36,897 bases of DNA, taken from assembly GCA_013368795.1 (NCBI GenBank), contig JABFXX010000391.1, forward strand, positions 1 through 36,897. The letters are read 5' to 3'. A program made the translations under genes and the position numbers. The stretch comes from Kofleriaceae bacterium (GTDB lineage: Bacteria > Myxococcota_A > Polyangia > Haliangiales > Haliangiaceae). This document shows positions 20,374 through 21,048 of the stretch, piece after piece. The notes under the pieces were generated by a model. It saw only the letters and a program-made list of their open reading frames with translations, did no database searches and was not told the origin of the DNA. Each line of letters begins with the position of its first letter. Position 1 is the stretch's first letter.

Positions 20374-20491
20374 ACAGATGTCGTCTAACGGCAGGACTGC
20401 GGTTTGCGTCGACAATCCTCGCCCGCATCGCGGGCCGACGTTCGAGGCTTATCAGGCACCGCCTACGCCGGTTCGACTCCGGCCGTCTGTT
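20374..20491 (+). ncRNA. tRNA-Y RNA hybrid 1: tRNA body with Ro60-type helix in the anticodon arm
   Basis: Outer parts are tRNA: acceptor ACAGATG/CGTCTGT, D stem GTC/GAC with a TAACGGCAG loop, anticodon-like stem GCGGT/ACCGC, T arm GCCGG/CCGGC with loop TTCGACT. Between the strands of the anticodon stem are 54 bases instead of 7. They contain CTCGCCC (20418-20424), a short loop, GGGCCGA (20432-20438), eight bases, and GCTTATC. CTCGCCC can pair with GGGCCGA leaving one bulged C, the helix that Ro60 recognises in Y RNAs. The usual seven-base anticodon loop is missing, so this is unlikely to decode. Alternative folds exist, for example CCTCG/CGAGG outside CCCGC/GCGGG. Confidence 0.65.
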
Positions 20492-20559
20492 CACGTTTTC
20501 GCGGGTAGCCCGAGTCGCGTTCCCCCTCAGTCCGCGGCTCGGGCCTGCGCCCGCCATCT

Positions 20560-20630
20560 ACATCGCGCGTGCTGGTGCACGGCCTCGAGTCCAAATCGAG
20601 CGCGGCAGGGTTCGAATCCTTGGCGGTGTG
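20560..20630 (+). tRNA. tRNA-Trp(CCA)
   Basis: Acceptor ACATCGC/GCGGTGT (one T-G pair), D arm CGTGC/GCACG around a four-base TGGT loop, anticodon stem CTCGA/TCGAG with loop GTCCAAA (CCA), T arm CAGGG/CCTTG with loop TTCGAAT. Discriminator G, CCA not encoded. Stems are good apart from the very small D loop. Confidence 0.8.
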
Positions 20631-20656
20631 CTTGCCCGACTTCGTGCGGGCCGCCG
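20631..20656 (+). other. Linker hairpin resembling the Ro60-type helix
   Basis: CTTGCCCG at 20631-20638 pairs with CGGGC inside CGGGCCGC (20647-20654), around an eight-base loop. It matches the tRNA-Y hybrid pattern except that GGGCCGA is GGGCCGC here, and no G(G/C)TTATC follows at the right distance. It could be a degenerate copy or just a linker hairpin. Confidence 0.35.
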
Positions 20657-20709
20657 TGTGGCAACAGAGCCGCTGGGTGATGCCCAGCCCGAAGGCACGG
20701 CTCCTTTCT

Positions 20710-20783
20710 CGGGGTGTAGCTCAGCCTGGTGGAGCGCTTCGTTCGGGACGAAGAGGTCGCAGGTTCAATTCCTGTCACCCCGA
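20710..20783 (+). tRNA. tRNA-Pro(CGG), canonical
   Basis: A textbook bacterial tRNA-Pro: acceptor CGGGGTG/CACCCCG, D stem GCTC/GAGC with loop AGCCTGGTG, anticodon stem CTTCG/CGAAG with loop TTCGGGA (CGG), variable AGGTC, T arm GCAGG/CCTGT with loop TTCAATT, discriminator A and encoded CCA (20784-20786). It stands out because many neighbours are irregular; it may be closer to a chromosomal housekeeping gene. Confidence 0.95.
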
Positions 20784-20791
20784 CCAGTGAT

Positions 20792-20916
20792 GCACGCGTA
20801 GTTCAACCGGGAGAACACCAAAACACCCGTTTGCGGCACCTTGTCCATTCGTGGGCCGATCGTGGACGGTTATCCCTCCAACGGAGGAGATGCTGGTTCG
20901 AATCCAGCCGTGTGCA
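20792..20916 (+). ncRNA. tRNA-Y RNA hybrid 2: tRNA body with Ro60-type helix in the anticodon arm
   Basis: Acceptor GCACGCG/CGTGTGC, TA at 8-9, D stem GTTC/GAAC with loop AACCGGGA, T arm GCTGG/CCAGC with loop TTCGAAT, discriminator A. The anticodon region is about 75 bases. A stem CCGTT/AACGG encloses CTTGTCC (20840-20846), a six-base loop, GGGCCGA (20853-20859), eight bases, and GGTTATC (ending 20874). CTTGTCC pairs with GGGCCGA through G-C, G-C, G-T and C-G, then a bulged C, then G-T and A-T. Outside it, CAC can pair with GTG as in animal Y RNAs. Ten extra bases lie between the D arm and the stem. A Trp-like CTCCAAC loop can be drawn near 20876, but only with a poor stem. Confidence 0.68.
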
Positions 20917-20925
20917 TCACGCTTC

Positions 20926-21048
20926 GCAGACGTAGCTCAGTGGGAGAGCGCTAAGGCCCTCGGGCACTCACTTGCCCGTCATCGGGCCGACGCGTGAGGG
21001 TTATCGAATTGGATCGAGAGGTCGTCGGTTCGAATCCGACCGTCTGCA
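20926..21048 (+). ncRNA. tRNA-Y RNA hybrid 3: tRNA body with Ro60-type helix in the anticodon arm
   Basis: Acceptor GCAGACG/CGTCTGC, TA at 8-9, D stem GCTC/GAGC with loop AGTGGGA, variable-like AGGTC, T arm GTCGG/CCGAC with loop TTCGAAT, discriminator A. The anticodon region carries CTTGCCC (20971-20977), a six-base loop, GGGCCGA (20984-20990), eight bases and GGTTATC. CTTGCCC pairs with GGGCCGA with one bulged C. The helix continues outward as CTCA/TGAG across an internal loop, and a basal CCTCG/CGAG stem can join it to the tRNA body. This is the cleanest of the three copies. A TTGGA stretch at 21009-21013 could be read as a proline anticodon, but no proper seven-base loop forms. Confidence 0.7.

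Follow-up and report, generated by a model that had tools for sequence, protein, structure and literature searches.

Bacterial Y RNAs are known to mimic tRNA by circular permutation. YrlA is defined by a stem formed from the RNA's own 5' and 3' ends (PMC8394870), and structure 6CU1 of YrlA can be superposed on tRNAs once a circular permutation is allowed for (PMC11472068). Bacterial and vertebrate Y RNAs have been called not homologous, and binding of Ro60 to the bulged-C helix has been described for the vertebrate site (PMC4726728). We analyzed a stretch of 36,897 nucleotides from a Kofleriaceae bacterium (assembly GCA_013368795.1, contig JABFXX010000391.1), referred to as the window, in which an array of tRNA genes surrounds a gene for Ro60/Rsr, the bacterial counterpart of the human autoantigen Ro60. 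Judged by sequence, three RNAs encoded in this array, referred to as P type, are probably Y RNAs in tRNA order, i.e., a tRNA body combined with a two-helix Y module that has features of a Ro60-binding site. What appears to be new is a tRNA-order form carrying the Ro60 helix that is found in several lineages, lies by Ro60, and covaries. No RNA of this kind was found in an open-license library, a scope outside which the main YrlA papers (Chen 2013, Chen 2014, Wang 2018) fall.

Arrays of tRNA genes with a TROVE or an HNH gene have been described before. A TROVE gene is present in 20 of 29 archaeal tRNA clusters (PMC6333295), and HNH endonuclease genes occur in mycobacterial tRNA arrays (PMC5966550, PMC12803027); the array in the window has both genes. 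The terms Y RNA and Ro60 are absent from the two mycobacterial papers, and the passages on the TROVE gene in PMC6333295 mention neither a Y RNA nor a tRNA-Y hybrid for the archaeal clusters.

P-type RNAs in the window

The three RNAs and their parts are located as follows:

20374..20491, + strand: P-type RNA 1, 118 bases; acceptor 20374-20380 with 20484-20490, T arm 20467-20483, Y module 20406-20453; anticodon arm not recognized
20432..20453, + strand: Y 5' strand motif copy 1, GGGCCGA-N8-GCUUAUC
20792..20916, + strand: P-type RNA 2, 125 bases; acceptor 20792-20798 with 20909-20915, T arm 20892-20908, Y module 20827-20874
20853..20874, + strand: Y 5' strand motif copy 2, GGGCCGA-N8-GGUUAUC
20871..20887, + strand: possible anticodon arm of RNA 2; 7-base loop CUCCAAC 20876-20882, anticodon CCA 20878-20880
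20926..21048, + strand: P-type RNA 3, 123 bases; acceptor 20926-20932 with 21041-21047, T arm 21024-21040, Y module 20957-21005; an anticodon-arm-like stretch with an 8-base loop was seen by eye
20984..21005, + strand: Y 5' strand motif copy 3, GGGCCGA-N8-GGUUAUC

An initial annotation of this DNA had placed three RNAs of 118 to 125 bases here, each with CUYGYCC, a loop of 6 or 7 bases, GGGCCGA, 8 bases, and G(G/C)UUAUC. This description held upon reanalysis. The loop between CUYGYCC and GGGCCGA has 7, 6, and 6 bases in RNAs 1, 2, and 3, respectively, and the window contains the motif GGGCCGA-N8-G(G/C)TTATC at exactly three places, all inside the tRNA array, compared with zero occurrences in each of 100 dinucleotide shuffles. 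A looser scan of the window with up to two mismatches yielded 4 matches versus 7.4 expected and is uninformative by itself. Across the 9.8-Mb genome, the pattern GGNCCGA-N10-TTATC had four matches (the three in the window and one other) versus two for a reversed control pattern. Human Y1, Y4, and Y5 presumably share the motif GGNCCGA-N8-GUUAUC and its spacing with the P type.

Good acceptor, D, and T arms had also been claimed, and each unit indeed has a 7/7 acceptor stem, a 5/5 T stem, and a D arm. The module is 48 to 49 bases long and, with short linkers, separates the D arm from the anticodon-arm position. The Rfam tRNA model (RF00005) listed RNA 3 alone over the whole unit at E ≤ 1, with 50.2 bits (gathering score, 29) and the helix treated as a long insertion; neither RNA 1 nor RNA 2 had a tRNA listing at this threshold. 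The P type resembles tRNA in having acceptor, D, and T arms and predicted ends at the acceptor. In contrast to tRNA, its D arm and anticodon arm are not adjacent, and a conserved insert with a Ro60-type site lies between them. Engineered tRNA scaffolds likewise carry an RNA inserted into a tRNA body; the insert of the P type is natural and conserved.

Folding of the single sequences, suggested in the initial annotation as a check, bore out the proposed arms in part. The minimum free energy (MFE) fold of RNA 2 contains the acceptor, D arm, T arm, and Y module. For RNA 3, enforcing these pairs costs 0.3 kcal/mol relative to its MFE, and the MFE fold of RNA 1 has the acceptor, T arm, and Y module as proposed, with a D region that folds differently. 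The MFE energies correspond to z-scores of -1.2 to -2.2, which is weak evidence that we do not rely on.

Covariation, distribution, and tRNA body of the P type

The Y module consists of two helices. Helix B is formed by CUYGYCC and GGGC-C-GA, with a bulged C and CUY opposite the bulge; this pairing with its single bulged C had been recognized earlier and is kept in the covarying modules. Helix A, which had been missed, lies flush 5' of UUAUC (e.g., CCCUC/GAGGG in RNA 3). In an alignment of 18 modules chosen by hand, three from the window and 15 from eleven related loci, 92.0% of the cells are paired, CUC/GAG stands in place of CCC/GGG in three modules, and the loop that closes the lower end of the module has 5 to 14 bases. 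Double changes occur at 6 of 12 pairs (as many in 1 of 500 shuffles), with 16 double-changed cells compared to 5.2 after shuffling, and the covariation score was reached by none of 500 shuffles.

Since the helix A starts in this set were placed by eye, which favors pairing, the count was repeated on 25 modules from 13 loci, none of which had been used to build R1, a covariance model of the helix built partly from the three window RNAs (L095, L096, L101, and L124 were left out). In this second alignment, which is fitted to R1 and whose loci are related to one another, 94.6% of the cells are paired. Double changes were found at 8 of 12 pairs (1/500 shuffles), among them all six helix A pairs, and 45 cells are doubly changed versus 12.0 in shuffles (0/500). 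Slid-alignment controls reached a paired fraction of only 29 to 54%. A lack of compensatory changes in homologs had been named in advance as the outcome that would count against the idea; double changes were present in both sets.

A search with R1 at a cutoff of E < 0.1 recovered only the three window RNAs from their own 9.8-Mb genome (E = 1.4e-9 to 1.1e-6; next match, 0.18). Matches were found in 15 of the 35 genomes of the order and in 17 of 377 Myxococcota genomes, while TROVE is encoded in 32 of the 377. Sixteen of the 17 R1-positive genomes encode TROVE/Ro60 (Fisher p = 1.7e-18, a value to be taken as a guide since the genomes are related); in G008, the sole exception, the match lies 93 bases from the contig end. 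Ten distant loci with R1 matches were fetched, and nine of them contain Ro60. The R1 match at L101 (G405:C67) looks like chance, with no Ro60 in the locus; the Ro60 locus of G405 itself, L117, has a P unit.

Sixteen further TROVE-positive genomes, including G405, were examined about 3 kb to either side of Ro60. Six have P units with a full tRNA body (L117-L121 and L124), two have YrlA order (L113 and L116), and in the remaining eight neither was seen within this distance. Altogether, the P form is present in 21 of the 32 TROVE-positive genomes, 15 through an R1 match on the Ro60 contig and six through L117-L121 and L124. At five Myxococcota loci (L112, L114, L115, L123, and L125), TROVE lies amid tRNA genes and no P unit was found; more divergent Y RNAs are possibly present there. 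A Myxococcales metagenome-assembled genome (JAQBQF010000204.1) contains two P modules. At L097-L100, ARAGORN found no tRNA in the 15 to 20 kb fetched; therefore, the P form does not need a tRNA array.

Ten contigs of IMG/VR, whose viral nature is taken from their membership in this collection alone, match two module patterns. Three of them, L129, L131, and L134, encode Ro60 within the stretch fetched, and each has the module in a tRNA body; L130, L133, and L137, also matched by R1, have no such body. The pattern matches at L128, L130, L132, and L135-L137 were read as unrelated. L133, with 32 tRNA genes, carries a module-like hairpin in permuted order at 4409-4457 (R1, 22.0 bits); this hairpin is not enclosed by a tRNA body, and the 13.6 kb fetched contain no Ro60. 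A scan of the viral contig collection with the Ro60 protein found no relative. Thus, the link to Ro60 proposed in the initial annotation was borne out, but the form is not confined to the array in the window: it extends to several Myxococcota families, some loci without a tRNA array, and three contigs of the viral collection.

For the tRNA body, the 66 R1 matches were reduced to 48 by dropping the near-identical L095/L096, L101, and weak matches; one of the 48 is cut by a contig end, leaving 47 parsed units. In 34 of these, a 7/7 acceptor is followed by the start of a D arm, versus a mean of 0.9 and a maximum of 4 with the acceptor strand shuffled (300 shuffles). All 34 complete units have a T stem of at least 4 bp, 31 a D stem of 4 bp, and 28 a T loop that starts with UUCRA. 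In the three window units and the 31 others, the predicted unit ends form the 7/7 acceptor, and a loop caps the Y stem. The rule applied to the 47 units also classes 8 of the 9 R1 matches at L117-L121 and L124 as full tRNA bodies. tRNA finders miss or misread such genes: 2 of 32 whole units yielded a tRNA call when ARAGORN was run with introns disallowed.

An anticodon arm, defined as a 7-base loop that has U33 and a purine at position 37 and is closed by at least 3 contiguous pairs, is possible in 14 of the 34 complete units, including RNA 2, compared with 1.5 expected from shuffles; ARAGORN also reads the anticodon CCA in RNA 2. Because many units can form this arm after UUAUC, the module sits 3' of the D arm and ahead of the anticodon-arm position, outside the anticodon loop. 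This corrects the initial annotation, in which the helix replaced the anticodon loop; it lies 5' of the anticodon-arm position, and RNA 2 can form an arm with a 7-base loop.

An insert that separates complete tRNA halves, with anticodon arms well above expectation, could also be intron-like: the Y module would be excised by an unspecified mechanism, perhaps with Ro60 bound, and the flanks joined into ordinary tRNAs. We consider this improbable, as 20 of the 34 units have no anticodon arm by the above definition, several anticodons read after in silico removal begin with A (ATC, ACC, ATA, AGG, and ACA; weak readings), some variants apparently lack a D arm, the window has no Rfam match to an intron family at E ≤ 1, and YrlA-order relatives have no comparable tRNA halves to join. 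In silico removal of the module as such was uninformative and not used: ARAGORN then called a tRNA in 25 of 32 units, but also in 23.3 of 32 on average when the anticodon region was shuffled.

The three RNAs are real members of a conserved family. Covariation, conservation in several Myxococcota families, and the association with Ro60 speak strongly against decaying tRNA pseudogenes with a chance insert, an explanation that draws on the degenerate look of several tRNAs in the array and on the modest single-sequence z-scores and that we regard as hardly credible.

Variant arrangements were also observed. P units at L032 (6648-6698), L037 (7643-7690), and L092 (6994-7045) apparently lack a D arm and consist of acceptor, Y module, short linker, and T arm. 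At L044 (3403-3448), the Y module apparently lies near the variable loop of the tRNA body, 3' of the anticodon arm (by eye). Plain open Y hairpins without a tRNA part lie beside Ro60 at L098, L099 (~9108-9195), L113, L116, L118, and L124, and L037 has three in tandem at 10750-10940.

Circular permutation relative to YrlA

The Rfam alignment of YrlA (RF02553) runs in the order Y 5' strand, T arm, closed acceptor, D arm, and Y 3' strand, while a P unit runs acceptor, D arm, Y 3' strand, loop, Y 5' strand, anticodon-arm position, T arm, and acceptor. Because the same end of the module connects to the tRNA part in both, with open and closed ends exchanged, the P type as predicted and YrlA are circular permutants, and both are expected to share one three-dimensional arrangement. 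The initial annotation had likewise described a swapped strand order, a loop-closed end, and a circular permutant of YrlA, in agreement with this comparison of module order. Both forms have the Ro60-type helix with a bulged C and CUY opposite, a tRNA-like domain with T arm, acceptor-like stem, and D arm, and a location alongside the Ro60/Rsr gene. In contrast, the 5' and 3' ends of YrlA pair in the Ro60 stem and its acceptor is closed by a loop, whereas the predicted ends of the P type form the acceptor and its Ro60 stem is closed, so that the stem of the YrlA definition given above is not formed by the ends of P units. Furthermore, the Rfam YrlA consensus has no anticodon arm, which is possible in many P units; a similar stretch was seen by eye in the phage YrlA-order RNAs of L105 and L110. 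The P type therefore appears as the tRNA-ordered counterpart of YrlA that still carries the Ro60 helix. Vertebrate Y RNAs (RF00019) differ from it in having no tRNA part and in their swapped strand order.

At L037, an alignment to the full length of the YrlA model runs through two P units that lie side by side (30.5 bits, E = 5.5e-5 in 261 bases). A weaker match lies in the window:

20889..20949, + strand: junction of RNA 2 and RNA 3; weak Rfam YrlA match, 23.7 bits, E = 0.73, model positions 28-81 of 114

This segment holds a T arm, acceptor strands, and a D arm, i.e., the YrlA order read across two adjacent units. Such matches, together with the tandem open hairpins of L037, would also fit genes that really make YrlA, with transcripts of tandem units cut in the loops of the Y helices and the tRNA-order unit reduced to a choice in drawing boundaries. 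However, some P units are solitary or separated from the others (RNA 1 of the window, L097, and L098), with no neighbor to supply the other half. Also, acceptor strands pair at 7/7 within the 34 units (by selection), compared with 4.6/7 on average and 7/7 in 15% between units. We therefore hold a YrlA product to be very improbable.

YrlA order was found elsewhere. Actinophages that encode Ro60 have YrlA-order RNAs with the same motif (at L104, GGGCCGG-N8-GGUUACC and an acceptor closed by UUCG), which score 36 to 42 bits with Rfam YrlA (L104, 42.2), also below its cutoff. In the Myxococcota family f19 (L113 and L116), the RNAs have YrlA order, an acceptor closed by a GAAA-type tetraloop, and an anticodon-like arm. 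A Ro60 tree with 36 labeled rows requires no fewer than 2 changes between the P and YrlA forms; the tree is unrooted with many weak forks, and no direction of change is claimed.

Two further loci were noted. In L110 (Gordonia phage Forza), 28 annotated tRNAs and a tmRNA come immediately after a Ro-like gene, and the anticodon-arm stretch of the YrlA-order RNA at 8683 nearly equals that of window RNA 3. In L111 (Picosynechococcus pAQ7), a tRNA-like body at 5780-5910, upstream of TROVE, contains GGGCCG and GGUUAUC in an ambiguous topology.

Ro60, proposed role, and surrounding array

The array and its protein genes are located as follows:

17476..22311, + strand: tRNA array around Ro60; 14 genes called by ARAGORN (one being a call inside RNA 2) and uncalled tRNA-like stretches
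18102..19739, + strand: Ro60/Rsr protein, 545 amino acids, TROVE and vWA_Ro60, inside the tRNA array
21534..22091, + strand: HNH endonuclease, inside the array

A Ro60 gene upstream in the same array had been noted initially, and its position was confirmed. The protein is close to Deinococcus radiodurans Rsr (2nvo, E = 4e-128) and to Xenopus Ro entries. We take K170, R174, and H187 of human Ro60 to be Y-binding residues; all three are kept in 24 of 27 homologs, and the lysine and arginine in 27 of 27.

In the proposed mechanism, the neighboring Ro60 would bind the bulged-C helix docked on its outer surface. Because the predicted RNA ends lie at acceptor stems, they would be produced by tRNA-processing enzymes. 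The tRNA body may serve as the effector end, as in YrlA, in which DusA and TruB install dihydrouridine and pseudouridine and which connects Rsr with PNPase (PMC8394870). The tRNA-like domain of YrlA has also been proposed as a possible inhibitor of an anticodon nuclease (PMC7790460), and the tRNA body of the P type could likewise inhibit such an enzyme.

The strongest rival differs from this proposal solely in the job of the tRNA body, which would be a scaffold for maturation and stability without a function of its own, supplying ends for RNase P and 3' processing and protecting an ordinary Y helix. The conservation of acceptor, D, and T arms in units of which 20 of 34 have no recognized anticodon arm would agree with this, as would the plain open Y hairpins at the P loci L098, L099, L118, and L124 and at L113 and L116. 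In contrast, the anticodon arms of the other 14 units differ in sequence, and YrlA keeps the same tRNA modules although it does not terminate like a tRNA, a point in favor of the tRNA shape itself having a function. We consider a mere scaffold unlikely.

Several observations weigh against Y RNAs in tRNA order. Thirteen of the 47 parsed units lack a full tRNA body, being D-less forms, tandem open hairpins, or misparses. No anticodon arm was found in RNA 1, and the MFE fold of RNA 2 pairs part of the CUCCAAC loop, leaving three bases open, so that the 7-base loop is absent there. The lower helix has 4+2 bp around the bulge versus seven bp in vertebrate Y RNAs. The comparison with Rfam suggested in the initial annotation yielded YrlA matches across unit junctions, but these stay below the gathering score of 69 (23.7 bits in the window and 30.5 bits across two units of L037), and Rfam Y_RNA (RF00019) matched neither the window at E ≤ 1 nor the tandem open hairpins of L037 at E ≤ 5. 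Eleven of the 32 TROVE-positive genomes showed no P unit, ten of them within about 3 kb to either side of Ro60, the other being G003, whose contig ends early. Among the genomes counted as positive, G357, one of the 15, has the R1 match as its sole evidence, and the module of L124 is weak (R1 E = 0.33). Nine Ro60 loci of phages and plasmids gave no R1 match at E < 0.1 (best E, 0.77). Finally, the histidine taken to be Y-binding is not kept in 3 of the 27 Ro60 proteins (L098, L099, and L102), all of which have P units.

A wider reading, which we put forward tentatively and at somewhat less than even chances, takes the P type as the link between tRNA and bacterial Y RNA, i.e., a Ro60 helix grafted into a tRNA. 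YrlA may have arisen from it, or reverted to it, via tandem duplication and a shift of the unit boundary. In these arrays, a single Ro60 would have a set of interchangeable RNA adaptors, namely tRNA bodies that differ in anticodon, hairpins with no tRNA part, and, in related arrays, an RNA mimicking 23S helices 69-71. Some P units might be aminoacylated and, if so, would tether Ro60 to charged tRNA-like RNAs. The P type may show how Y RNAs arose from tRNAs, and the origin of the tRNA mimicry of YrlA becomes testable. As a set of natural permutants, P-type RNAs allow the Ro60 site to be studied apart from the effector end, and they offer a candidate role for the unexplained tRNA arrays that contain TROVE genes.

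Open-order Y RNAs with a loop that nearly copies what we take to be 23S rRNA helices 69-71 (CCGUAACUAUAACGGUCCUAAGGUAGCGA) were seen at L031 (11613, ~165 nt), L032 (4953), L033 (10593), L034 (11789), and L039 (2911) and also in L028, L035, L037, L038, L040, L041, and L042. The scan covered 40 sources; the 12 that contain such RNAs all belong to the family of the window, and the window itself has none. Fuzzy matches to this loop in L094 and L104 look like chance.

A homolog of the HNH endonuclease is present in 19 of 30 related loci compared. Tracts at 17690-17790, 21180-21235, and 22350-22590 of the window are tRNA-like, with T-arm-like sequence, and were not called by ARAGORN; the array looks partly degenerate. 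Directly 3' of the Ro60 stop codon, at about 19762-19805, lies a GC-rich hairpin ending in GGUAUUUGGG, which by eye resembles the sequence at the same place in L027, L028, and L032.

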